From Pseudomonas lalkuanensis (GTDB lineage Bacteria; Pseudomonadota; Gammaproteobacteria; Pseudomonadales; Pseudomonadaceae): DNA of 64,000 nt. Where the stretch lies: positions 5,684,001 to 5,748,000 of the forward strand of contig NZ_CP043311.1 of NCBI RefSeq assembly GCF_008807375.1, given 5' to 3'. Each line of letters opens with the position of its first letter. Position 1 is the stretch's first letter. The notes below the pieces were generated by a model that saw nothing but the letters and a program-made list of their open reading frames with translations, did no database searches and was not told the origin of the DNA. The position numbers and the translations under genes are program-made. This document shows positions 24,949-64,000 of the stretch, one piece after another.

Positions 24949-25347
24949 TTTTCAACGCCACGACTCGTGATTTGTCCAACACGCCGCCGTCCGTGCGCCA
25001 AAGCACCTCTCGCTCACGGTGAATAGACCGCGGATCTGCAAGTCCACCGAAGCCTATCTCCACTCTGACGGCCACCGAGCCCGCCCCGGGGGTCTTCCTG
25101 CATCTGCCAGGCATTTTGATCCCGCTGCAAAAGGACCATCCCTGGTGCCCGAATCACAGCGACGCCTCAAAAAAGTGCCCGCCCCCAGACACTTGCAGCG
25201 CTGAAATCCCGTCGTTGGCGCCCTGTCCAATCACGCCCCTTCTCCCTCAAAGCCACCAGCCACGCGGCCTCCAGGCGATCGAAGGAACCTGATCCGGCGC
25301 CCTGTGAAAAATTGGCACGGCCTCTGCAATAGTCCAGCTAACAGTGG
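24949..25347. other. Intergenic stretch without a recognisable gene
   Basis: Between the ntrC terminator and the tandem repeats. Short open frames here have no recognisable protein features and no convincing ribosome sites. No tRNA-like or riboswitch-like fold was spotted by eye. Confidence 0.5.
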
Positions 25348-25807
25348 TTTCGGGGGCCCTGGTACAGGCAGGCCAGGGAATCCCCGCTCTTATGACAGGC
25401 AGGCTGAACACCAGCCGCCACGGCTCCAGAAGAGCCGCATGCAGCACAACGTCGCCCACGGGCGACCAGGTTTCAGGGGGCCTTGGTACAGGCAGGCCGG
25501 GGAATCCCCTCTTTTATCCACAGGCGCGCTGGCTTCCAGTCGCCGGGCTCCGGGAAGAGCCCACGCAGAACCGCGTCATCCGTCACGGCGGGCGACCACC
25601 CTTCAGGGGGCCTTGGTACAGGCAGGCCGGGGAATCCCCTCTTTTATTCACAGGCGCGCTGGCTTCCGGCCGCCGGGCTCCATAAGGACCCAGTGCAGAA
25701 CCGTGTCACCCGCAACGGCGGGCGACCACCCTTCAGGGGGCCCTGGTACAGGCAGGCCGGGGAATCCCCTTTCTTATTCGGCGCGCAGGCTGACTTCCAG
25801 CCGCCAG
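25348..25807. repeat. Tandem repeat, unit about 130 bp, 3.5 copies
   Basis: The core GGGGGCCYTGGTACAGGCAG begins at 25352, 25476, 25606 and 25736, giving spacings of 124, 130 and 130 bp. Copies 2 and 3 are nearly identical; copy 1 is diverged. The fourth is partial and merges into the 3' end of the minus-strand gene at 25774, whose last codons share the CTTATTC and GCGCGC...CTTCCAGCCGCC blocks of the unit. Since 130 is not divisible by three, the repeats are not coding. They look like duplications of a gene 3' end plus its downstream flank. Confidence 0.85.
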
Positions 25808-50150: not shown

Positions 50151-50165
50151 GGCGACCCCTCCTGG

Positions 50166-50241
<76 letters not shown>

Positions 50242-52593: not shown

Positions 52594-53340
52594 TTGAAGA
52601 AAGAGCACAATTTCAGCGTAATTATTCCGGCACGGTATGAATCCAGTCGACTTCCCGGAAAGCCACTTATAGAGATATGCGGCATCCCGATGATCATAAG
52701 GACCTATGATCAGTGTGCCAAGGCCTGCCCTCAGGAAAAGATTTTTGTCGCAACTGACGACGATAGAATCAAGGATGTCTGCGAGGCACATGGCATACAG
52801 GTCCTGATGACATCAAAAGACTGTCTAACTGGTACCGATCGGGTAGCCGAATGCGCAAGATTGATTGACTCTGAAGTGTTCATCAATGTCCAGGGAGACG
52901 AGCCCCTCTTCAATCCGCAAGACCTAATATCAATTATCGAAAAGATCAATGATTTCCCGGGTGATGTGCTCAACGGTTTCTGCCCCATACTGGAAGAAGA
53001 GCACTTTCGCAGTACCAGTACACCGAAAGTTGTAATCCGTCCTGATGGGCGGCTGCTCTATATGTCCCGCGCGACAATTCCCGGAACGAAAGACGACAGA
53101 TTCATTGCTGGCCATCGCCAAGTGTGCGTTTATGCCTTCCCCCGAAAAGCACTCGAGGCTTTCAGCTCGCAAACGAAAAAGACGCCACTGGAAAGCATAG
53201 AGGACATCGAAATTCTTCGCTTCCTGGAACTTGGCTGGGAAGTAAGGATGATCGAATTGTCCACCAGCTCAATCGCCGTGGACAATCCCGAGGACGTGCT
53301 GCGCGCTGAAGCTGCAATTCAGGAAGGTAAGCTCCCATGA
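52594..53340 (+). CDS. KdsB-like CMP-sugar synthetase (3-deoxy-ulosonate cytidylyltransferase family)
   Basis: 248 residues. CTP-dependent activation of a 3-deoxy-ulosonic acid. FSVIIPARYESSRLPGKPL near residue 7 is the nucleotide-binding loop, ATDDDRI the base-contact region, GTDRVAECA and NVQGDEPLF the Mg-site region, and LYMSRATIPG the sugar-site region (canonical KdsB has FSRAxIPW, so the sugar pocket may differ). The TTG at 52594 is preferred: GGAG sits nine bases ahead and family members start at this point; a GTG 13 codons upstream is the alternative. The stop overlaps the HAD gene. A house-keeping kdsB is expected elsewhere, so this is likely a second, dedicated enzyme. Confidence 0.85.
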   Translation: MKKEHNFSVIIPARYESSRLPGKPLIEICGIPMIIRTYDQCAKACPQEKIFVATDDDRIKDVCEAHGIQVLMTSKDCLTGTDRVAECARLIDSEVFINVQGDEPLFNPQDLISIIEKINDFPGDVLNGFCPILEEEHFRSTSTPKVVIRPDGRLLYMSRATIPGTKDDRFIAGHRQVCVYAFPRKALEAFSSQTKKTPLESIEDIEILRFLELGWEVRMIELSTSSIAVDNPEDVLRAEAAIQEGKLP

Positions 53341-54014
53341 ATGCCACTCTGAGAAATTACGAGTGCCTGGTCTTCGACTGCGACGGGGTCATATTGGACT
53401 CCAATCGGATAAAGACCGATGCCTTCTACAGAGCGGCGCTGGACTATGGAAAAGCCCCAGCCACCAAGCTTGTGGAATTCCACGTGGCAAATGGCGGTAT
53501 TTCTCGCTATCGGAAATTTGAGTACTTCTTCCGTGACATCCTGAACAGAACATCGTGGGACAACGAACTCGACGTCGTCCTCGAAAACTACGCAAACTTT
53601 GTCCGCGATGGACTCCTGACCTGCTCCATCGCGCCCGGCCTCGAAAAGCTGCGCGAGATCACTGCCGATAGCCGCTGGCTAATTGTTTCGGGCGGCGATC
53701 AGGTAGAGCTGCGAGAAGTCTTCATGGCCCGCGGTCTGACGGAATACTTCGACGGCGGCATCTTTGGCAGCCCAACGCCAAAAGACGTCATACTGGAAAG
53801 AGAAATCGAACGGCAAAACATTCAGAAGCCGGCGTTGTTCATTGGGGACAGCCGCTTCGATCATCAGTGCGCCACGGCGGCTGGGCTAGACTTTGTGTTC
53901 CTCAGCGCGTGGAGCGAGTTCAATGAGTGGCCGGCATATTTCAGCGACAAGAAAATTGTCATTCAGGCCAGTATCGAGTCGTTTCTCAACACGCAAATCG
54001 CCGGCCAGGTATAG
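53337..54014 (+). CDS. HAD-superfamily phosphatase, subfamily IA-like
   Basis: 225 residues. Nucleophile motif VFDCDGVILDSN (Asp14 and Asp16), a helical cap of about residues 25-95, motif II LIVSGGDQ, motif III Lys in GSPTPKDVIL, and motif IV FIGDSRFDH. The capped layout differs from the capless KdsC but suits small sugar-phosphate substrates, as in the sialic-acid-9-phosphatase group. Translationally coupled to the KdsB-like gene by an ATGA overlap, so dephosphorylation of the sugar acid before CMP activation is a reasonable inference. Ends 10 bp from the convergent cysC stop. Confidence 0.86.
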   Translation: MNATLRNYECLVFDCDGVILDSNRIKTDAFYRAALDYGKAPATKLVEFHVANGGISRYRKFEYFFRDILNRTSWDNELDVVLENYANFVRDGLLTCSIAPGLEKLREITADSRWLIVSGGDQVELREVFMARGLTEYFDGGIFGSPTPKDVILEREIERQNIQKPALFIGDSRFDHQCATAAGLDFVFLSAWSEFNEWPAYFSDKKIVIQASIESFLNTQIAGQV

Positions 54015-54024
54015 AAACCTCGAA

Positions 54025-54612
54025 TCAGGAACTCTTGATAAGCCCGTAAAGCCGCTCGACTGCATCATCAATATGCGCGTCAAGTGTATTGATGATCAGA
54101 TCTGGCGAAGAAGGAGACTCGTAGGGCGAAGATATCCCGGTGAACTCGGCAAGCTCTCCCGCCCTTGCTTTTCCATAGAGCCCTTTCGGATCCCTGGCCT
54201 CGCAGGCCTCGAGCGGAGTGCTGACGTACACTTCCTTGAAGAACTCCGCTCCAATGATCTCTTTTGCCATGAGCCGATCAGCACGCAATGGCGAGATCAA
54301 CGCAACCACCACTATCAGCCCTGCCTCGTTCATCAACCGAGCAACTTCGGCCACCCTTCTGATATTTTCGGAGCGGTCCTGAATGGAAAACCCCAAATTC
54401 CTGTTCAGACCGTGGCGGACATTGTCACCGTCTAGTGTGAAGCATGCCCTTCCAGCCGAAAGCAATCGACGCTCCAAAGCGAATGCCAGTGTCGACTTGC
54501 CGGATGCGCTCAAACCAGTCAACCAAATCGTGACGCCGACCTGCTGCAATAATCCTTCTCGCTCTTGGCGGGTCACATTACCCTGATGCCAAACGATGCC
54601 TTTCTGAATCAT
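54025..54612 (-). CDS. cysC: Adenylyl-sulfate (APS) kinase
   Basis: 195 residues, stand-alone form. Makes PAPS from APS and ATP. P-loop GLSASGKST near residue 33, LDGDNVRHGLNRNLGF (APS-binding Asp/Arg), SENIRRVAEVA, and FKEVYVSTPLEACEARDPKGLY. No sulfurylase (cysD/cysN) or PAPS reductase is next to it, so within a polysaccharide island the likely use is PAPS supply for sulfation of a glycan, though no sulfotransferase is visible in the window. Plausible starts all near 54612. Confidence 0.95.
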   Translation of the reverse strand: MIQKGIVWHQGNVTRQEREGLLQQVGVTIWLTGLSASGKSTLAFALERRLLSAGRACFTLDGDNVRHGLNRNLGFSIQDRSENIRRVAEVARLMNEAGLIVVVALISPLRADRLMAKEIIGAEFFKEVYVSTPLEACEARDPKGLYGKARAGELAEFTGISSPYESPSSPDLIINTLDAHIDDAVERLYGLIKSS

Positions 54613-54681
54613 ATCTGCCCCTCAGGTTTATCCATGCATGAGGCATGGCAGCAACCCACAGGGACGATGCCTTGGATTACT

Positions 54682-56055
54682 TTACCCATAGTGTCTCACC
54701 CTTTCGACGATGAACTCGCACAGATCCTCCATATCAATCCGGCATGGAACATTCTGGTCGATTGCAATGAGGTAATTCTCGAATAGAGAGCCAATGTATG
54801 CATGCCCGTTGGTAATGCGTTCCGGGAAATTGTCACGGCAGAGCGCAGCCCGTAGCATGGCAGACACATCCTGCGTCGCTCGACACTCATAGGCAACACC
54901 TCGCTGGCTCAGTTCGGTGAAGCCCAGCGTGACCAGCGGCTTGTCGCTGGCCAGTACCCTGGCCAAGGCAGTAGTCGCAAGAGAAACGCAAACGTCCGCA
55001 CTCTCTATCAGGAAATTAATGTTTACATCTTTGGCAAGATGGACGTTCCCTGTGACTAGGTCAGTATAATTTCCACGATCGGATGGATGAGGCTTGAAAA
55101 GCAATATGTCATTGGGGGCGACCACGTTCATCGCGTCTATGACTGACTTCAATCCCGCACGTGTCGATGAGAAAGGATTGTCACTCTCTTGCCAACGCCC
55201 AAAAGAAGAGAGAAGACTGCCAGTCCCAAGATCATTGACCCCGATAAAGAGAATCACTCTTTTTTTCGTACTTTCCAGCATTTCCCGGAGTTCTGACAGC
55301 GCAGCAACGTTATACGATGCGTAAGGTAGCGCTGTGTTTGATCTAACCCACTCCGAATAGTGGCGATATGATCCGCCTTGCCCTTGCGACTTACCGAACA
55401 ACACCCGTTGAGGCTGTAGCCCAAAGCCGCCGAAAGCAAACTGGCCAACCGTATCCAGCATTAGCGTTCCGGAGAAGTGCCCCCTTTCGAGTACTAGCAC
55501 CGGGATCGATAGCTCGCCACATAGTTTCAAATGCAACTGACTCAGTGGCGCCGTGCTTCCCCAAACCAACATTAGCGCCGGCCGGCTTTCTCTCAGCACT
55601 TCAAGCCAATAGTGATAACCATCGCTCATCGCCTCTCTATGCCGCTGCAGATCAGGCAACGGCCTGCCGGAAGACATGAGCCAGAACCGTTCATAGCTCA
55701 ATATCCCCGAAAGCCATTGAGCCACATTGTCCGGGACAGGTGAGTCATAGCGCCGTGGAGAGCTGACAAAGAACCCTGAGCGAATGATATCCAGGCGTAA
55801 AGAACTCACAAGAACGGGGGCGTCTGTAACAAAGGTCAGCCGAATTCCTTTACTCGCGAGACTCCGCTCCAGTTGAACAAGTGCACCATGGACAGACTCA
55901 GTCGATTTCAACCAGCAGGATATGAAGATACGTGAATGCCTGTTCTTCCACTGACGCGCTCGCCAGCGCTGAAAGAAGCTCCTGCGCAAACGACCGAACA
56001 GGCTCCTCATCACAGACGAAACCTTGCGCAGGCCCCTCATTAAAACGCTAGTCAT
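54682..56055 (-). CDS. Putative CMP-sugar-dependent glycosyltransferase (KpsS/WbbB-like GT-B)
   Basis: 457 residues. A basic N-terminal region (1-40) is followed by a GT-B-like fold. RIFISCWLKSTESVHGAL begins the first lobe, MLVWGSTAPLSQLHLKLCG is near 162-180, and the second lobe has ILFIGVNDLGTG, KPHPSD at 321-326 and SLATTALAR at 358-366. KPHP followed some 35 residues later by a Ser/Thr cluster is the arrangement that holds CMP in sialyl- and Kdo-transferases. The whole chain aligns with residues 505-920 of the 1,229-residue protein at 58895. No signal peptide or membrane helix. Donor and acceptor unknown; family assignment is from motif pattern only. Confidence 0.68.
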   Translation of the reverse strand: MTSVLMRGLRKVSSVMRSLFGRLRRSFFQRWRARQWKNRHSRIFISCWLKSTESVHGALVQLERSLASKGIRLTFVTDAPVLVSSLRLDIIRSGFFVSSPRRYDSPVPDNVAQWLSGILSYERFWLMSSGRPLPDLQRHREAMSDGYHYWLEVLRESRPALMLVWGSTAPLSQLHLKLCGELSIPVLVLERGHFSGTLMLDTVGQFAFGGFGLQPQRVLFGKSQGQGGSYRHYSEWVRSNTALPYASYNVAALSELREMLESTKKRVILFIGVNDLGTGSLLSSFGRWQESDNPFSSTRAGLKSVIDAMNVVAPNDILLFKPHPSDRGNYTDLVTGNVHLAKDVNINFLIESADVCVSLATTALARVLASDKPLVTLGFTELSQRGVAYECRATQDVSAMLRAALCRDNFPERITNGHAYIGSLFENYLIAIDQNVPCRIDMEDLCEFIVERVRHYG

Positions 56056-56118
56056 GCAGCTCGAATCTGCAACAAAAATATGACGCCTTGAGAATCACGT
56101 TGAGTATTTTCCTGCACT

Positions 56119-57135
56119 TCAGCCCTTGCTCCGCTTGAGCATCGGCTTCTCGACGAACAACCAGGACGCAATCGCGAGGACAAGAGTGAACAACGCCGAA
56201 AGCGCCATTTCGGAATAAAGCCCGTAGCGGAAATTATTTATCACCAGTTGCTGCACAGGGAAGGCGTAAATATAAACCCCGTATGAAACATCGAACCGCC
56301 CGGCAATCAGATTTTCAGAGAAGGATGTGCAAAAGACGATCACAATGGCACAGATCGCCATATTACCAAGAACCATCATTTCCGGCCGACCTTTAAAAAC
56401 AAAGAGAACAGCTAGAGAAGCGAGTATCAAATAGATCCTGCTAGCCTTACCCGTCCAAATGGATTCGGTAAGCGCAAGCAAACCGCCCAAGGAAAACACT
56501 AGGAGGAACATCATGAGCCTTTCGAGGGAAATCGCATAAAATGTATAGCTTATGGAGCTCTCCCGAACGACCAGCATACCTACGAAGCTGACCACAAAAA
56601 GAGCGAGAGGTGCCTTTACAGTTCTGGAAAAAACAAGTGCCACCCCAACAATCAGGTAGCACAGAAACTCGATTGGCAAAGTCCAGAGACTGCCATTTAT
56701 CGTACCGCTATAGATAAAATCAGAAAAAATACCCGCATACCTTATGCCCAGCAGCATGGAGGCAGAAAGGAAGGTTTTCCAGGTCCTTTCTTCGCTGAGA
56801 TAATCGAAATAGCCCAGCTCCACATAAAAAGGTATGACAACGAATACGACTACCGCAGAGCAGGCAATCAAGCCGGGGAATATCCTTCTCGCCCGCTTCT
56901 CCAGATAATCATAGAAGTTGGCCGAGCGGACGAAGCTCTTGGTGACCAGATAGCCAGATATCGAAAAGAAAATTACAACTGCCAGTCCACCCAGCGAATG
57001 CATCCCTATGAAAGAAGGTTCTGTCATTCCCGACAATGCAAAGTGATGGCTAAACAGCACCATAAACGCCGCAAAATGCCGGACCAGATCAAAGCAGTTC
57101 CTGTGGGTTGGCGAGCTGCCGTTCGAAGTTATCAT
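56119..57135 (-). CDS. Membrane acyltransferase, acyltransferase-3 family
   Basis: 338 residues with about ten transmembrane segments. The family start NCFDLVRHFAAFMVLFSHHF (His near residue 29), VIFFSISGYLVTKSF, RRIFPGL and NGSLWTLPIEFLCYL are all present. These proteins O-acetylate or succinylate surface glycans from the cytoplasmic membrane. The ATG at 57135 fits the family start; the longer frame reads through the aldolase terminator. No C-terminal SGNH domain. Codons are noticeably A/T-rich compared with the core genes. Confidence 0.92.
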   Translation of the reverse strand: MITSNGSSPTHRNCFDLVRHFAAFMVLFSHHFALSGMTEPSFIGMHSLGGLAVVIFFSISGYLVTKSFVRSANFYDYLEKRARRIFPGLIACSAVVVFVVIPFYVELGYFDYLSEERTWKTFLSASMLLGIRYAGIFSDFIYSGTINGSLWTLPIEFLCYLIVGVALVFSRTVKAPLALFVVSFVGMLVVRESSISYTFYAISLERLMMFLLVFSLGGLLALTESIWTGKASRIYLILASLAVLFVFKGRPEMMVLGNMAICAIVIVFCTSFSENLIAGRFDVSYGVYIYAFPVQQLVINNFRYGLYSEMALSALFTLVLAIASWLFVEKPMLKRSKG

Positions 57136-57157
57136 TATTTCAAATAGGCTCTGAGAT

Positions 57158-57188
57158 AAAAAGGCCCGAGGGTGGTAGCCCCCGAGCC
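57158..57188 (-). terminator. Terminator after the aldolase gene
   Basis: On the minus strand GGCTCGGGGG pairs with CCCTCGGGCC (two G-U pairs), followed by TTTTTAT. It separates the aldolase from the acyltransferase, so the latter probably needs its own promoter or read-through. Confidence 0.78.
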
Positions 57189-57206
57189 TATCATATATTG
57201 AATTAA

Positions 57207-58823
57207 CTAGATCCGCGGTGCGTACGGAGACTTTTCTGGCAGTGAAAGAGAAGTTGGCGTAATAGCTACCAGCGGTATGGAATCCTGATAATCCCGGTAG
57301 CACTTCAACGCCATTTCCATCTGGCTATGACGGGGATCGCCCAACTCGTAGCCATCGAATCCGGCCAGCAGGACTCTATTGGCACCAGCCACGCTGCATA
57401 TCCCGAGACCATAAATGGCCGACAGGGCCGCAGGTAGAACGGCAGTCAATTCACCTACTTCGAAATGGCCCTTCTGAACGGCCATGCCATAGTCGAGGAT
57501 ATTCCAGTTTTTCCACACGGAAAGCTCTTCCTCGTCGATCAAGCCGACCGGCACGACCAGGGTTCCCTGATTGTTCGCGTAAAAGTCCCTGTCCAGCAGC
57601 AGGCGCTGCCGGTTGCAGGCAACCCACGCGTCGACCTTGTCGACAGGGAACCAATCATTGCTGTTGATGCAAATGACGTATGGCTTCTTCGTACTTATGT
57701 AGTGCAGCAGCCCCTCAAGGTGCTGTTTTACCCCCGAGCCCGGACCGATCATGAGGACATCCCGTCCTTGAAGCCATCCTTTAGGACTCCAGGTACCCAG
57801 CACGGAATCCCGTTGTTCTTGCGTAGCGTCCAGCAATCTGTCCTGGGAGAAACCTGTAGCGCCCGACTCACCCAGCCGGCGGAGTGCGGTGATGATCGTC
57901 GAGGGCTTGTATCGGTCGTCGCTCAGCATCTCCTGAACATAGGTCGGGTGCACCCCGTACATTGCCGACAGGTGGTAATAGAGGTTGGGCCCCCAGCCGT
58001 ACTTCTTCTGAAGTGGCTGGAACTCCTCGACTACCAGGTTGAGCAAGCTACTGAGGTCAGCGTCATGACCTCCATTTTCGGCAAGGGCCAGCAAGAGATT
58101 CTCTATCCGGGCATTACCCGCGCCGCGCCCCATCCCCAGTACCGTCGCATCGATCCAGGTTACCCCCAGTTCCATGGCGGCCATGCAGTTGCTCAGGGCA
58201 CATCCCATATTATCGTGAGCGTGGAAGCCCAGTTCCCTGTCCCACCCATCGCGCAGGGCAGCAACTATAAATGCAACGTCCTTCGCCGACATGTTCCCCA
58301 TGGAGTCGGCGAAATAAAGCACATCGACGGGCCACTCAGAGAGCAGCCTGGCCTTGCTGCTCAGCTCGTCTGCAGAGCGACCATTGGATTGCATGAAGTT
58401 GAAACCGACTCGATACCCCAGAGCGTGCAGAGCCAGAACAATTTCAGTGCAGTTATCAATCTCTGCAAAATGGGCAGCAATTCGCACCAGCTCGACAGGA
58501 GAGTCTTCAGCTTTCGCAAAAATTCGCTGTACTGCACCCGGGCCACCTTTCAAGAGGTCCTTGGCGTTGCACATCACACCTACGCGCACTCCCTCAGGAA
58601 CGCCAATGTGCCTGATCCATTCATCGACCGTGAATGCATACGGTCCGGCGAATGAATCCGCAGATTCGGTCCTCAGACCAAGCTCCACGTAGTCGATTCC
58701 CGCTCGTTTCATGACCTCCAGGTAGCGACGAACCAGGCCGGTCGGATAATCCCAGTTATTGTAATAGCCGCCATCACGGAGCGTGCAATCCAGCACGGTT
58801 AACATTTTACGATCGGGAATCAC
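57207..58823 (-). CDS. HMGL/DmpG-like aldolase fused to an uncharacterised C-terminal domain
   Basis: 538 residues. The N-terminal DRE-TIM barrel (about 7-330) has LDCTLRDGG (Arg16, Asp17), metal ligands in FHAHDN (His201, His203) and GMGRGAGNARIE, all matching 4-hydroxy-2-oxovalerate aldolases, which join pyruvate to an aldehyde. The extra domain (about 340-538) begins GRDVLMIGPGSGVKQHLEG and ends with RVLLAGFDGYELGDPRHSQ, reminiscent of the DUF115/MAF or GT42-like Rossmann fold; this is a tentative reading. The GTG at 58823 has AGGAGG seven bases ahead; TTG at 58826 and ATG at 58805 are alternatives. The DmpF dehydrogenase partner is absent, so a biosynthetic role in the glycan island is likely. 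Confidence 0.83.
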   Translation of the reverse strand: MIPDRKMLTVLDCTLRDGGYYNNWDYPTGLVRRYLEVMKRAGIDYVELGLRTESADSFAGPYAFTVDEWIRHIGVPEGVRVGVMCNAKDLLKGGPGAVQRIFAKAEDSPVELVRIAAHFAEIDNCTEIVLALHALGYRVGFNFMQSNGRSADELSSKARLLSEWPVDVLYFADSMGNMSAKDVAFIVAALRDGWDRELGFHAHDNMGCALSNCMAAMELGVTWIDATVLGMGRGAGNARIENLLLALAENGGHDADLSSLLNLVVEEFQPLQKKYGWGPNLYYHLSAMYGVHPTYVQEMLSDDRYKPSTIITALRRLGESGATGFSQDRLLDATQEQRDSVLGTWSPKGWLQGRDVLMIGPGSGVKQHLEGLLHYISTKKPYVICINSNDWFPVDKVDAWVACNRQRLLLDRDFYANNQGTLVVPVGLIDEEELSVWKNWNILDYGMAVQKGHFEVGELTAVLPAALSAIYGLGICSVAGANRVLLAGFDGYELGDPRHSQMEMALKCYRDYQDSIPLVAITPTSLSLPEKSPYAPRI

Positions 58824-58894
58824 CAAGCTTCCTCCTTTTCTGGCCGGAGATCAAATAACACGACCAAGAATACTCAACGTCAAAAATGGCTATT

Positions 58895-61800
58895 TCAAAC
58901 CAGCTTTCTGTAGCTGGCGAACGGGTCCGCACTCACAAACTTCTTGATCTCGGGAAAATAGTCCGGGAATTTATCCGAGATTATCTTGCGAGCCGCCACT
59001 TTCCGCGCATTGGCGGTGTCTGCGAAACTCACTCCACCTACATGGCCGACATACACATCTGTAGCGCAGACGTTCTTGAAGCCGAGACTGCGGGCGCGCA
59101 GACAAAAGTCCACTTCCTCGCTGTAGCCCCGCCCAAATAGAATTTCGTCGAAGAAGCCCAATTCCCGTACCGCGGTGCGCTTCACGTACATGCAGAAGCC
59201 GTGCCCCACTGGCACTTCGATCGTATCGCCGCCGGCAGAAACCAGTGCCTCATTCACCCTCGCGACTTCCTCGAGACCGCCATGGAGTTCCGCACCTCGC
59301 GGGAAGTCTGCAAGACTAAAAATGGACGCATTGTTCGAGAACGGCGTAACAGTGGCAACCTCGTCCGACGAATACGCATGGCGCTGCAGCCTGCTTACCC
59401 ACCCAGGGGTAACGAGCGTATCGCTATTGAGCAGAATGACGTCCCTGTCTTGCGAGTAGGCCATCCCCCTGTTGGCTGTAGCGGGATATCCCACGTTAAC
59501 GGGATTGAAAAGCACGACAACGCCTTCCGTTGAACGATAGTCTTCCAGCAGGGCCTTGACGTCCTCATAAGGGCTGGCATCGAAGATCACGACTATTCGG
59601 TAATCATCCTGCCCCCTGGCCAAGAGCACACTATCTATACATGCCTTGGTTATAGCAGCGTCACCGTACACCGGAATGACCACATCCACACCACGAGAGG
59701 GCTTCAAGCCAGCGGTACTGTAGTCTTCCTTGTAGAAGATGGGATTGGCAGGATTGAAGAGTCGGCGAAGCAGATGCCGTCCCTGCAGTCGCCCATCAAC
59801 TTTACTCATGACCGGGCTCGACGCTATCCGGCCACTGATGAACTCACTCAGATCTCTTATGCCGAGTCTCGCAGGAGTGGTTTCGTCGACACCAACCAAC
59901 TGCTCTTCAAATATATATTTTATAAACGCAAAGCCCTTCCGGCTACGCTCCTCGAGCCCTTCTCCGTGCAATGCGGCCCTGAGCTGTACAGGAATATCGG
60001 TCAGGCTCGAGCACTCATAGGCAGCACCTTTCATGCTGATATCGGATATTCCGATATTCAAGGTCGCCTTTGCTTCGAGCATGCAACGGGCCAGTGCCGT
60101 AGTGGACAGGGAAACACAAACATCGGCCGCGACGATGAGCGGGTTGATGTTATGGGAGTCCACCAAGACATCCCCATCCGAAAGTAGAGCGGAATAGTTC
60201 GTCTTGTCGGACGGATGCGGCTTCAACATGAGAACCGCTTTTGGATCGATAGCGCGCAGCGCATCTCTGACCGCATGGAACGCCTGCAAGGAGGAACTGA
60301 ACAGTTTTGAGTGTTCCTCCACTCCCGCCCGTCCCGCATAAGCTGTGCCCGAACCCAGATCGTTGACGCCAATGAACAGGACGATTTTCCGTTGCTCGGC
60401 ACGGAAGGTAGACAGTAGTTCCTCTACGTTCTCCTTGCAGTTCTTGCTCGAATAGGGCGACTCCTGATTCTTGCGCACCCACTCGGCATAGTGATGAATG
60501 TCACTCTCCGAACAATTGACGTTGGCGAGCAGGGCGGAGTGAGGTCGGAGATTGATTCCGCCTCGCCCAAACTGAGCAAGCAGGTCAATCGAAATGGTTC
60601 CAGGGAAATGTCCGCGCTCAACAATCAACGAAGGAATGGAAAGATCCAGGCAGAGCCTATAGTGGAGCTTGCTCAGCGGCGCGGTACTGCCCCAGATAAG
60701 CATCATCCGCGGCTTGAACTCTTCAAACAGCACTTTCCAGAAAGCGTAAGCGGATCTGACTCGTGCCTCGATGCCAACGTCTGCCCGCGCACCTTCCGAC
60801 GTCATCATTACCTCTTCCCAACACCTCGTCATCTCGACAATCTCTGTCAACCAATCGGGAAAACTGACGTTGCAGGAAGACAACTTGGGGTACAGGTTGG
60901 AAATCAGGAAATCCGTCGACAGCGCCTCGACCCCTGGCTCCGAAAGCAAGGTCGCAGCATTGGTGACAAAGGTCGTCCTCACTCCATCGGCCAGTAACCT
61001 TTCGGAGAGTTCCAGTAGCCCGTCGTGTATCGACTCCTTGTTCTTCAACCAGCAAGACACGAAGACTCGATATCGACCATCACCCCGGGAGCTGGACAAG
61101 ACGGGAGAAGCCTGACGGTTCGCTCCATACTTTATGTAGTGAACCAAGGGGTTCACCCCAGCTCGTGCGACATCCGGATAACGCCAGAGGTACTTCCGAG
61201 TAGAAAAACTCTTGCAGGGGTCCAGCCCCAGATGCGCACCGAATCGGAGATAGTGGAGTACCGCATCATAATTTTCGAACTGGCTCTGGTCGCACTGGGT
61301 TCGATAGAACTCCCGATCAACCATGGAGCTCGACAAAAGTCTGTCGTAGTCCTGCCCCAAGTTCATTTCTTGAATGATGGTGTTCTTCAAGCTGCTCGTA
61401 TACGGGACATCGCCAGATTGCGGTATCTCTATCCCATGAGCCCGGGTCGAGCGATCGAACGCGTGAAGCAGCGCGACTCTTTTCCCCGACAACAATGGCA
61501 GCAGGCTTACTGCACCCGCGACTTCCAGATCCGAAGCCTCGGATACGCCCTTGAATAGCTCCGCAAGCGCCTCCAGCAAGCCGATTCGCGCCCAGAACAT
61601 ATGGTTCGCAAAATAACCCCAGTCACCCGCCAGGCTGGAAGAGTATCGATCCAGAATCGGATGAGCAGCCGCGGGATCAAAGCCCCTTGCGGCGGCCATG
61701 GGTCGGTGGAACAGCGCAGAGCCAATGAGCCAGACATCGGGGTTTTGCGCAAAGGCATCCACGACGTTCGAAAGCACTGCCTTGGAACCGATCAACCCCT

Positions 61801-62584
61801 GGAAGCTGAGGGCGATCAGCCGCTCCTGATGCGAGCGACTGAGGCCCTGATCCTGCCATGTGCGGAGCTGCTGGGTACTCAGGCAGCAGAAGAACTCCAT
61901 CCGGTCCGCCTTCAGCAGAGGCAGCAACAAGCTCCACCAGTTCCGCCCTTGTGCCAACTCGGACACCCTGATGTCCGTGTATATCTTCTTCGCGCCCTCA
62001 ACGACAGCCGAGTAGTGGGTACTGTCGGCGGAAAGATAGATGCGGTATTGATCGGACTGATCGACCAGAAGCGGCATCACAAGAGCCAGGTCATCTGCAT
62101 TGGCAACATGGACATAAATGGCCATGTTCTTGCCAGCGATTGGAAGAGCCGCGGTGCCGCTTGCAAGCTCATCTCGCTTAGCGACCGCTGGTGCCGCTAC
62201 AACACAACTGACGTCCCCAGTGGAGCGCCTCTGAAATGCAGGTCTATGGGCGGCCAACTCATGCGCTTTCGGTGCTTTTCGTCCTGTAAATTCGCCAGAG
62301 GGGTATCGTCCTTCTTTTATCCCATACATTGCATAGTGATAAAGCGGGTTCACGCCGGTGCGCGCTACATCCGGATATCTTGCCAAATACCACTTCGTGT
62401 CGAAGTAGTGGTTTGGCCTACGCCCCTCCTTCCACCCTATATAGTAATAATGAGAAAGTGGATCAAGATTACTTTCGACGACATCTGTGTATGTCGAAAC
62501 ATAGAAATGCGGATCAAATAGCCCACTTTTCTCTATCCGTTTTTTACGTATATATTCGCGCATTTGACCCACACCGTAGTTCAT
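58895..62584 (-). CDS. Multi-module glycosyltransferase (RgpF-like, CMP-type GT-B, GT2)
   Basis: 1,229 residues. Modules: FDxxxYxxxYxDV-type repeats at 23-95 (FDPHFYVSTYTDV, FDTKWYLARYPDVA) and again at 437-495 (KYLWRYPDVARAGVNPL). A rhamnan-synthesis-F-like region covers about 150-420 (YFANHMFWAR). A GT-B-like domain at 505-920 is homologous to the whole protein at 54682, with WGSTAPLSKL, KPHPSD at 788-793 and SLSTTALAR at 825-833. A GT-A/GT2 domain at 966-1229 has VDVVIPVYGD, metal-binding NSDT and GYSEEVDFCLRAR. No signal peptide or membrane helix. So at least two and perhaps three sugar-adding sites in one cytosolic protein. Starts 4 bp after the coiled-coil gene, hence cotranscribed with it. 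Confidence 0.85.
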   Translation of the reverse strand: MNYGVGQMREYIRKKRIEKSGLFDPHFYVSTYTDVVESNLDPLSHYYYIGWKEGRRPNHYFDTKWYLARYPDVARTGVNPLYHYAMYGIKEGRYPSGEFTGRKAPKAHELAAHRPAFQRRSTGDVSCVVAAPAVAKRDELASGTAALPIAGKNMAIYVHVANADDLALVMPLLVDQSDQYRIYLSADSTHYSAVVEGAKKIYTDIRVSELAQGRNWWSLLLPLLKADRMEFFCCLSTQQLRTWQDQGLSRSHQERLIALSFQGLIGSKAVLSNVVDAFAQNPDVWLIGSALFHRPMAAARGFDPAAAHPILDRYSSSLAGDWGYFANHMFWARIGLLEALAELFKGVSEASDLEVAGAVSLLPLLSGKRVALLHAFDRSTRAHGIEIPQSGDVPYTSSLKNTIIQEMNLGQDYDRLLSSSMVDREFYRTQCDQSQFENYDAVLHYLRFGAHLGLDPCKSFSTRKYLWRYPDVARAGVNPLVHYIKYGANRQASPVLSSSRGDGRYRVFVSCWLKNKESIHDGLLELSERLLADGVRTTFVTNAATLLSEPGVEALSTDFLISNLYPKLSSCNVSFPDWLTEIVEMTRCWEEVMMTSEGARADVGIEARVRSAYAFWKVLFEEFKPRMMLIWGSTAPLSKLHYRLCLDLSIPSLIVERGHFPGTISIDLLAQFGRGGINLRPHSALLANVNCSESDIHHYAEWVRKNQESPYSSKNCKENVEELLSTFRAEQRKIVLFIGVNDLGSGTAYAGRAGVEEHSKLFSSSLQAFHAVRDALRAIDPKAVLMLKPHPSDKTNYSALLSDGDVLVDSHNINPLIVAADVCVSLSTTALARCMLEAKATLNIGISDISMKGAAYECSSLTDIPVQLRAALHGEGLEERSRKGFAFIKYIFEEQLVGVDETTPARLGIRDLSEFISGRIASSPVMSKVDGRLQGRHLLRRLFNPANPIFYKEDYSTAGLKPSRGVDVVIPVYGDAAITKACIDSVLLARGQDDYRIVVIFDASPYEDVKALLEDYRSTEGVVVLFNPVNVGYPATANRGMAYSQDRDVILLNSDTLVTPGWVSRLQRHAYSSDEVATVTPFSNNASIFSLADFPRGAELHGGLEEVARVNEALVSAGGDTIEVPVGHGFCMYVKRTAVRELGFFDEILFGRGYSEEVDFCLRARSLGFKNVCATDVYVGHVGGVSFADTANARKVAARKIISDKFPDYFPEIKKFVSADPFASYRKLV

Positions 62585-62588
62585 TCCA

Positions 62589-64000
62589 TCACCCCTTCTT
62601 CCCTAATATTCTCCTAAGGAATCGGGTATATCTCCAACTTCTGCTCAAGCCGACTCGTGTCAATCTGCTCCGCAGCTTATCCGCCTCTTCCATTGTTTCA
62701 TGCAATAAAGCACGAGCGCGCTGTAACTCGAACGAAGTTTCCTGCATCATTTTTTCGCGCGCATCAATATCCTTCTTCAAAAGCGCCAGTTCGTCCTTGC
62801 ACTGGCTAAGCTGCTGCGCGCGCCCCTCGGATTCTGAACGAGAGTCCAGCAGCAGAGCCTCAGTTTTCTTCGACTCATTCTGTAGAGTGGTTAGCGCTTG
62901 CTTAAGCTCTGCATTGCCATCGAGCTCCTGCTGATACGCACCTTGCAAACTTTCAAGCGAAGCACTCAAACGAAAGCGGGCTTCATTCAAGGCGGTCAGC
63001 TCTTCACGTTGAACCGCGTTGGCATCGATCAAATTCTGGTTGGTTTCGATGACGTGCTGATGCATCTGCTGAGCAGCCTCAAGCTCAGTGCCCAGTTGGA
63101 GATTCTCTATTTTCTGCTGCTCGACCTCCGCTTCCTTCGCCGCAGCAGTAGCTCGCGCTTGGGTAGCGGCCAGGTCGAGCTCCTTCGTCAGATTCACCGC
63201 CAGTTGTAGCGAACGATCTTTCTCCTGAATGAGCTCACGCAGCAGTTGACTGGCCGCGCGCTCGCTCAAGTTCTGCTCTTGCGCCTGCTCGAACTTCGTC
63301 TTGTACAGCTCAACGCGCCCTTCCAGCGCGATTTGCTCCTTGGAAAGTCTGGAGAGTTCTCCGTCTGCGGAAGCTCTTTCGCTGACTGCGACGTCCCTCT
63401 CAGACTTCAACCGTTCCTGCCCAACCCGAACCTCTTCGAGTTCCTTCTGGTGCTTTCTTACTTCCGAGAACAGGTAATGAACCGGAGAGATTATTCTCTC
63501 GGAACGGTCGCCGTTCTGAAGAACATCAAAACTCACGCGAACCTTGCGAGCACCATCAAAGTGCTCCTGTGCCAGACCCTTGAACCTTATCTGCGGGTCG
63601 CCTCCAGCAAAGAAATACACATCGCCCCAACGATACGCTGCGTTCGTTCTTATATACTTCTTGATACTTTCCGCAGGGCGCTCGTCATAGACCAGCTCAA
63701 CATCACACAACTCGGCAATTACACTTTCCGAGCAGGGATCAAGCCTGACGTCGACGACTCCGCTGCTGGGAAGGTCAAACTCGAGCGACACCCTGTCACT
63801 TGAATCCACAGAAAAGTACCGGCTATCTCGCCTCGACTGGCTGAACCCTTCTCCTTCATCGTAGAAGAGCTCTGCCTCACGCAGGCCGGCCAACAAGGCA
63901 GCGTCACTGAAGAACTTCTGGGCTCTTTCATAGGCGAGGTTCAACTCGTCGAAGGCGTCTAGAACAATGTCTTCGTTGCAACTTTGAGAAATTGCAAGCA
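62589..64000 (-). CDS. Long coiled-coil protein of the glycan island, N-terminus beyond right edge
   Basis: Partial: the frame is open through the right edge (upstream codons read SQSCNEDIVLDAFDEL), so the TTG at 63944 is probably internal. The visible part begins with a beta-rich region containing AELFYDEGEGFSQ and VDVRLDPCSES, a module often placed ahead of glycosyltransferases. Some 270 residues of coiled coil follow (Glu/Gln/Leu heptads) and then a basic end, SRSWRYTRFLRRILGKKG. The coiled coil resembles the length-setting rods of chain-terminator proteins such as WbdD, or may only tether enzymes. A catalytic domain may lie in the missing N-terminus. Confidence 0.78.
   Translation of the reverse strand, partial: LAISQSCNEDIVLDAFDELNLAYERAQKFFSDAALLAGLREAELFYDEGEGFSQSRRDSRYFSVDSSDRVSLEFDLPSSGVVDVRLDPCSESVIAELCDVELVYDERPAESIKKYIRTNAAYRWGDVYFFAGGDPQIRFKGLAQEHFDGARKVRVSFDVLQNGDRSERIISPVHYLFSEVRKHQKELEEVRVGQERLKSERDVAVSERASADGELSRLSKEQIALEGRVELYKTKFEQAQEQNLSERAASQLLRELIQEKDRSLQLAVNLTKELDLAATQARATAAAKEAEVEQQKIENLQLGTELEAAQQMHQHVIETNQNLIDANAVQREELTALNEARFRLSASLESLQGAYQQELDGNAELKQALTTLQNESKKTEALLLDSRSESEGRAQQLSQCKDELALLKKDIDAREKMMQETSFELQRARALLHETMEEADKLRSRLTRVGLSRSWRYTRFLRRILGKKG

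Follow-up and report, generated by a model that had tools for sequence, protein, structure and literature searches.

A candidate aldolase-based route to a CMP-activated 3-deoxy-2-ulosonic acid in an O-polysaccharide island of Pseudomonas lalkuanensis

The 64,000-nucleotide stretch of the Pseudomonas lalkuanensis genome analysed here (contig NZ_CP043311.1, positions 5,684,001 to 5,748,000; hereafter the window) carries near its right end the genes of a DRE-TIM aldolase, a haloacid dehalogenase (HAD) phosphatase and a second homologue of the cytidylyltransferase KdsB, which we call KdsB2. These are the candidate enzymes of a route to a 3-deoxy-2-ulosonic acid activated with cytidine monophosphate (CMP). 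The host genome is a single contig of 6.06 Mb. Its G+C content drops from about 0.66 to 0.51–0.57 starting at ~50 kb of the window, just past a tRNA-Thr gene; this gene (50165–50240) and the sharp fall that follows it are the likely border of a polysaccharide island. Past the window end lie Wzt- and Wzm-type ABC exporter genes and, judged by eye, dTDP-rhamnose-like genes, and the island is an ABC-transporter-type O-polysaccharide cluster. Its features in the window are as follows.

52555 (GTG start) or 52594 (TTG start) to 53340, forward strand: KdsB2, second CMP-ulosonate cytidylyltransferase (PF02348, 146 bits; PRK13368, 285 bits; RQVC/EDIEI signature).
53337–54014, forward strand: HAD phosphatase (PF00702/PF13419), in ATGA overlap with KdsB2.
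54025–54612, reverse strand: adenosine phosphosulfate (APS) kinase CysC (PF01583, 218 bits).
54682–56055, reverse strand: Capsule_synth protein of the KpsC/KpsS type, candidate CMP-ulosonate transferase (PF05159, 21.0 bits against a cut-off of 20).
56119–57303, reverse strand: acyltransferase 3 family protein (PF01757, 60 bits; start uncertain, overlapping the aldolase).
57207–57782, reverse strand: C-terminal domain of the aldolase, ~190 amino acids, distantly MptE/Maf-like (weak PF01973, hhalign).
57783–58826, reverse strand: DRE-TIM domain of the aldolase (PF00682, 93 bits).
58895–62584, reverse strand: 1229-amino-acid glycosyltransferase (PF00535, 58 bits; GT2 domain at the C-terminal end).
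62589–63998, reverse strand: C-terminal part of a 717-amino-acid protein that continues beyond the window (full length, L007:589–2742).

The forward strand thus holds KdsB2 followed by the HAD gene, and their coordinates (start at 53337, end at 53340) bear out the ATGA overlap reported in a preliminary description of this DNA. Genes on the reverse strand occupy the rest of the island within the window, in the order APS kinase, Capsule_synth-type protein, acyltransferase, aldolase, glycosyltransferase and a 717-residue protein with sulfotransferase-like and coiled-coil parts. The HAD motifs DCDG, SGG, K and GDSRFD, read by eye, are intact. No operon is visible in the window, since 3.2 kb separate the aldolase gene from the HAD gene, which is on the other strand; the tight gene order is known from relatives. 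This arrangement speaks for one alternative, that nothing but proximity in a variable O-antigen island connects the three genes, to which we return once their distribution has been described.

The aldolase gene spans 57207–58826, and its product finds its best solved match in 3dxi, followed by the DmpG-type aldolases 8ih7 and 1nvm. In DmpG, the metal ligands are Asp18, His200 and His202, and His21 is the catalytic base. The preliminary description had regarded both the metal and the catalytic residues as intact; the first part stands, with D18, H202 and H204 retained, while the second does not, as the catalytic His21 is replaced by Tyr. Across 74 aligned full-length homologues, R17, D18, Y21, H202, H204 and H293 are invariant, and the two DmpG positions are exchanged throughout: His21 is Tyr and Tyr291 is His in 74 of 74. 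The protein does not reach the cut-off of the NCBIfam 4-hydroxy-2-oxovalerate aldolase model (123.5 bits against 286). No DmpF-type dehydrogenase is found among the eight island proteins scanned, in agreement with the earlier view that a DmpF partner is lacking. Tyr290 of the related BphI is reported to control the stereochemistry at C4 (PMC3962088). Judging from the alignment, the swapped Tyr/His pair could preserve acid-base catalysis and alter the stereochemistry. The family is large: of 8,000 candidates scored, 4,900 reach E ≤ 1e-20 against the full aldolase query, although some may be other DRE-TIM proteins, and the names among the 120 matches listed are 'aldolase catalytic domain-containing protein', '4-hydroxy 2-oxovalerate aldolase' and 'aldolase'.

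The C-terminal domain of ~190 residues, overlooked earlier, is unannotated. PF01973 matches 20 of the 74 members at E ≤ 1 (best 6.7e-4), the next family matches 3 of 74, and the window's own protein is without a match. When compared by hhalign with 20 phage MptE-like proteins, the domain aligned over 138 columns with P 2.3e-4 and a probability of 44%, while five unrelated control families gave P 0.037–0.42; since the MptE-like set scored P 0.0039 against the HAD set, the margin is modest. An assignment to GT29 was set aside, as the alignment with phage GT29 proteins covered only 30 columns. The Maf_flag10 domain (pfam01973) is described as resembling the sialyltransferase Cst-II, and a Maf enzyme as using both CMP-N-acetylneuraminic acid (CMP-Neu5Ac) and CMP-3-deoxy-manno-octulosonate (CMP-Kdo) (PMC11339370). 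In the light of this likeness and substrate use, the C-terminal domain may be a CMP-ulosonate transferase or the remnant of one.

The identification of a KdsB homologue was confirmed, with a PF02348 score of 146 bits against a cut-off of 22.6. Among the NCBIfam models, KdsB2 exceeds the cut-off of PRK13368 with 285 bits and falls just under that of TIGR00466 kdsB (152 bits against 155.2). It retains QGDEP and VDxPED, which includes the metal-site Asp, as expected of the cytidylyltransferase superfamily. Two canonical motifs are changed, RHIG to (R/K)QVC and ExLEQLR to EDIEI; both canonical forms are present in all 18 same-genus canonical KdsB proteins. The SRATIPG segment at the sugar site, emphasised in the preliminary description, proved a minor difference and was dropped as the key one, given that the canonical KdsB 4fcu also has SRATIP. 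The new signature, (K/R)Q(V/I)C with EDIE(I/V), occurs in 16 of 17 aldolase-linked bacterial KdsB proteins and in 40 of 40 readable viral aldolase–KdsB fusions (L117 is cut), and in none of 25 KdsB proteins taken as canonical (the 18 same-genus copies plus L181, L184–L188 and L216, the latter by our own label), all of which have H and G at the first site. The eight unfused viral KdsB proteins are mixed: L155 has QVC with EDVE, L156–L158 QVC with EDLE, L133 and L152 QIG, L118 QVG, and L110 neither form.

The signature sites lie in the C-terminal region of KdsB. Residues 100–210 of the Aquifex enzyme are described as the domain for dimer formation and Kdo binding (PMC3149649). In a tree of 61 KdsB rows, where the phage sequence L118 could not be placed and long branches occur in several rows, 14 canonical rows together with L014 and L110 split from the rest with support 98/93. 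The KdsB2 of G012, another genome of the genus, is placed apart from the window's copy, and the module was therefore probably acquired more than once within the genus.

A check for other kdsB genes in the host genome returned one at C1:2128768, with a PF02348 score of 211 bits compared with 146 for KdsB2, and a third, weak match of 25 bits. Three PF00793 genes lie outside the island, including a 282-amino-acid frame at C1:4725023 that we infer from its size to be KdsA, and a kdsC gene over the cut-off, distinct from the island HAD gene, is found at C1:996140. With kdsB, a KdsA-sized gene and kdsC encoded elsewhere, the island set is additional.

The preliminary description had also asked whether the aldolase occurs in related strains without its partners. 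Canonical kdsB is present in all 18 same-genus genomes (36–38% identical to KdsB2), full-length aldolase in four (G000, G011, G012 and G013), and a second KdsB (50–100%) in exactly these four of four carriers and in none of the other 14; the HAD gene adjoins it in all four. In the order of G070, eight of 62 genomes carry the aldolase, and a KdsB2-type gene (67–100% identical to that of G788) accompanies it in five of these eight and occurs in none of the other 54. The remaining three carriers (G070, G209 and G820) have a NeuA-like gene near the aldolase, and a weaker KdsB2 match in G766 is canonical in sequence. Shared ancestry makes these co-occurrence counts less independent than they look. 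The aldolase is an accessory gene, found full-length in seven of 369 genomes of a class sample (G000 and six others) and two of 398 of a phylum sample (G000 and one other).

For neighbourhood analysis, we gathered 29 bacterial aldolase loci from several searches, 28 with both domains in one frame and L019 split over two frames; they are not a random sample and include close relatives. They come from lineages including Pseudomonas, Vreelandella, an Ectothiorhodospiraceae metagenome-assembled genome (MAG), a Leisingera plasmid and Prochlorococcus. The neighbourhood co-occurrence sought by the preliminary description was found: a cytidylyltransferase gene lies within 4.5 kb in 27 of the 29 loci, and a gene of the same HAD family as in the window is present in 23. 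The two loci without a cytidylyltransferase (L018 and L020) both stop at a contig end; L015 (85 bits) and L017 (4.5 kb away, other strand) are weaker cases. In 19 loci the cytidylyltransferase gene immediately adjoins the aldolase gene, in the same orientation, and in L086 and L089 a single HpaI-type gene intervenes. In the window, L081 and L082, the cytidylyltransferase/HAD pair lies 3.2–3.9 kb from the aldolase on the other strand. The HAD family is weak in L015 (78 bits) and absent from L014 (which has a different HAD), L016 and L084 (contig ends) and the SAR11 loci L017, L018 and L020. A search of plasmid records gave three Leisingera plasmids with an aldolase coverage of at least 80%, and the annotation of a Leisingera plasmid lists consecutively an aldolase, a 3-deoxy-manno-octulosonate cytidylyltransferase and a HAD hydrolase.

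The cytidylyltransferase is KdsB-like in 17 loci, two of which (L016 and L105) also have a NeuA-like gene, and only NeuA-like in 10; five NeuA-like genes that were checked pass PF02348 at 32–49 bits. The KdsB and NeuA families both activate 2-ulosonic acids. Their exchange at these loci constrains the chemistry better than either family alone, and the product class common to them is most plausibly a CMP-activated 2-ulosonic acid. That the NeuA-like genes might instead serve a NeuB route was rejected for the bacterial loci: a NeuB profile, home-made from three sequences that each pass PF03102, found no NeuB-like gene in the window or in 28 of the 29 loci, among them every one of the 10 with NeuA only, so that these NeuA-like genes are not simply part of a neighbouring nonulosonic acid route. 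In L105, tandem CMP-sugar modules (L105:104–5641) comprise aldolase–KdsB and HpaI aldolase–NeuA–HAD. B12-binding radical SAM proteins, 37% identical to each other and possibly involved in sugar modification, are encoded near the aldolase in the Rhodocyclaceae MAG locus (L014:15034–16686) and directly beside it in SAR11 (L017:11708–13297).

A candidate for using the product is the Capsule_synth-type protein, which just passes the cut-off of PF05159, a family that includes KpsC and KpsS. The latter are described as CMP-beta-Kdo transferases (PMC10148158), and chain termination in Klebsiella O4 is reported to rely on a CMP-Kdo-dependent transferase that contains a coiled coil (PMC11231755). A profile search of solved structures with the 54682–56055 protein gave no significant match; its ERGH and KPHP motifs are conserved in six aligned rows. 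The mid domain of the 1229-residue glycosyltransferase is 39–40% identical to it by blastp and alignment. In Vreelandella, a HAD domain is fused to a Capsule_synth (KpsC/S-type) domain (L010:12478–14760; Capsule_synth 27 bits), and L011 encodes a long protein of the same type (58% over 763 columns).

These relationships raise the possibility that ordinary CMP-Kdo is what the module produces, through a different aldol reaction and reserved for capping the O-polysaccharide. KdsB2 passes two NCBIfam Kdo cytidylyltransferase subfamily models, and the nearby Capsule_synth proteins belong to a family that counts the beta-Kdo transferases KpsC and KpsS among its members. However, the genome already has another kdsB, a KdsA-sized gene and kdsC, the conserved residues of KdsB2 are changed and the TIGR00466 cut-off is narrowly missed, and NeuA-like enzymes stand in place of KdsB in 10 of 29 loci. 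We regard this explanation as unlikely, and the product is probably other than Kdo.

A direct link between aldolase and cytidylyltransferase comes from viral contigs. A scan yielded 66 loci with the TIM domain, and in 41 of them aldolase and KdsB form one polypeptide (23 clusters at 90% identity); among the other 25, eight have a separate KdsB-like gene close by, three a NeuA-like gene and one an HpaI-type gene. A protein search with one fusion returned 658 matches at E ≤ 1e-60; of the 120 listed, 119 contain both PF00682 and PF02348. In a search of phage records, no named entry reached 80% coverage of the fusion. For L136, L138 and L145, the flanks have matches in PHROG families of clamp loaders or DNA polymerases, and a flank of L128 matches an exonuclease, which fits phages; the tested upstream neighbour in L106 is a glycosyltransferase. 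An MptE-like or GT29-like gene lies within 4.5 kb of the fusion in 20 of the 23 clusters, a count to which L106, L111, L112, L128, L136 and L151 contribute by construction, as the profiles were built from their genes. In the 25 unfused loci, the same profiles gave only weak GT29 hits (L110 and L159). Four of the GT29-like genes (L106, L111, L112 and L151), 383 bp to 1.8 kb from the fusions, score 50–67 bits in Pfam against a cut-off of 23, and two MptE-like genes score 38.4 and 32.1 bits, over and under the cut-off of 34.6. NeuB-family synthases (PF03102) at L145:11045–11890 and L151:3543–4256 share their phage contigs with the fusion, and two ulosonic acid routes may coexist there. L160–L165 and L167–L169 form a separate phage TIM subgroup (RDYVF, HR for HP) with no cytidylyltransferase found nearby.

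Recurrence over many lineages, same-genus co-occurrence and the fusions lead us to reject the chance neighbourhood, which is refuted as far as genomics can do so and which we credit with almost no probability, the strand and spacing in the window notwithstanding. A further alternative is that KdsB2 activates an ulosonic acid formed by an HpaI-type aldolase or KdsA, and that the DRE-TIM protein prepares the aldehyde, cleaves, or modifies the product. The change of DmpG His21 to Tyr is compatible with this, as is the presence, in L086, L089 and L105, of an HpaI-type aldolase gene next to a NeuA-like one (Pfam-checked only in L086). The direct aldolase–KdsB fusion and the 25 of 29 loci without an HpaI-type gene nearby argue against it, and we consider it improbable.

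We find it likely that the island instead has its own aldolase-based route to a CMP-activated 3-deoxy-2-ulosonic acid, separate from the canonical Kdo route. Gene content, co-occurrence, fusion and residue signatures are observed, and all of the chemistry is deduced from them. The DRE-TIM domain would join pyruvate to a sugar-derived, probably phosphorylated, aldehyde; the HAD enzyme would strip the phosphate from the aldol product; and KdsB2 would activate the ulosonic acid with CTP. The Capsule_synth protein, the MptE/Maf-like C-terminal domain of the aldolase, or both, would then place it on the exported O-polysaccharide. The parallel route put forward in the preliminary description is thus supported by the additional kdsB set, the co-occurrence and the viral one-protein fusions, with corrections concerning the catalytic residue and SRATIPG.

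Several observations weigh against the aldolase route. Replacement of DmpG His21 by Tyr means that aldolase chemistry is not assured. G201 carries a signature-bearing KdsB2 (L183) and a HAD gene at a contig edge, and no aldolase was found in its genome. L014 combines a KdsB of another clade, with neither signature form, and a NeuB-like gene 4.9 kb from the aldolase; HpaI-type aldolase genes occur in four of the 29 loci (L014, L086, L089 and L105) and in phage L140. The three SAR11 loci have neither the HAD nor an adjacent cytidylyltransferase. In the viral set, 13 of 66 loci have no cytidylyltransferase or HpaI gene nearby, some due to contig ends, and the fusion loci lack the island-type HAD nearby, except for a weak one in L151 (75 bits). 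The fusion loci L145–L147, L170 and L151 also hold NeuB-like genes, so that their separate NeuA-like genes may serve another route.

Among the remaining genes, the 717-residue protein is sulfotransferase-like at its N-terminal end (PF13469, 17.8 bits, under the cut-off of 27), with a coiled coil seen by eye. In the same cluster as the APS kinase and the Wzt/Wzm exporter, it is possibly a sulfating chain terminator, comparable to coiled-coil terminators such as WbdD. The APS kinase was considered as a kinase of the ulosonate route and set aside, because this sulfotransferase-like protein, albeit under the cut-off, offers it an ordinary use; CysC probably supplies 3'-phosphoadenosine-5'-phosphosulfate to it, outside the ulosonate route. 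Elsewhere in the window, tandem matches to the nitrogen-regulated small RNA NrsZ lie at 25340–25526 and 25594–25784.

The synthases that make Kdo and the nonulosonic acids fall into a few known families. Our literature search found no paper whose title or abstract identified it as an account of a DRE-TIM aldolase route, with most subscription journals outside the search. In our estimate the chances are about even that a third general route to CMP-2-ulosonic acids exists, employing the swapped-Tyr/His DRE-TIM aldolase and spread over Gammaproteobacteria, Alphaproteobacteria including SAR11, cyanobacteria and other phyla, with phages carrying a bifunctional aldolase–cytidylyltransferase beside sialyltransferase-family genes, and with sugars not yet described. 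Bacterial surfaces, phage receptors and the recognition of glycans are all shaped by ulosonic acids. The reading would give a large protein family a function open to testing, records naming the partner gene a Kdo cytidylyltransferase, such as that of the Leisingera plasmid, might need correction, and the viral fusion, a single protein, could be assayed at once.

Like the Kdo pathway of KdsA, KdsC and KdsB, the proposed module would arrive at a CMP-ulosonate through an aldol step, a HAD phosphatase and a cytidylyltransferase of the KdsB family. It differs in that its aldolase is of the DRE-TIM family (PF00682) and not of the DAHP/Kdo8P synthase family, with no KdsA-family synthase in the module, in that its HAD enzyme is not the KdsC of the genome, and in that KdsB2 has changed conserved residues and in some loci gives way to a NeuA-like enzyme. 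The pathways to nonulosonic acids and Kdn, which employ a NeuB-type synthase, a phosphatase and NeuA, share the condensing enzyme, the phosphatase and CMP transfer, and some aldolase loci use NeuA-like enzymes; here, by contrast, the DRE-TIM aldolase adjoins the cytidylyltransferase, and a NeuB-like gene is missing from 28 of 29 loci. Among solved structures, the putative aldolase 3dxi comes closest to the TIM domain (E 5.9e-50); it shares RDGGYY, but has Pro at the His293 position and, at 320 amino acids, is without the C-terminal domain. With the DmpG/BphI 4-hydroxy-2-oxovalerate aldolases, the island enzyme shares the DRE-TIM fold family and the metal ligands, and departs from them in the His21-to-Tyr and Tyr291-to-His changes and in its different C-terminal domain, or, in viral contigs, in the KdsB fused to it.

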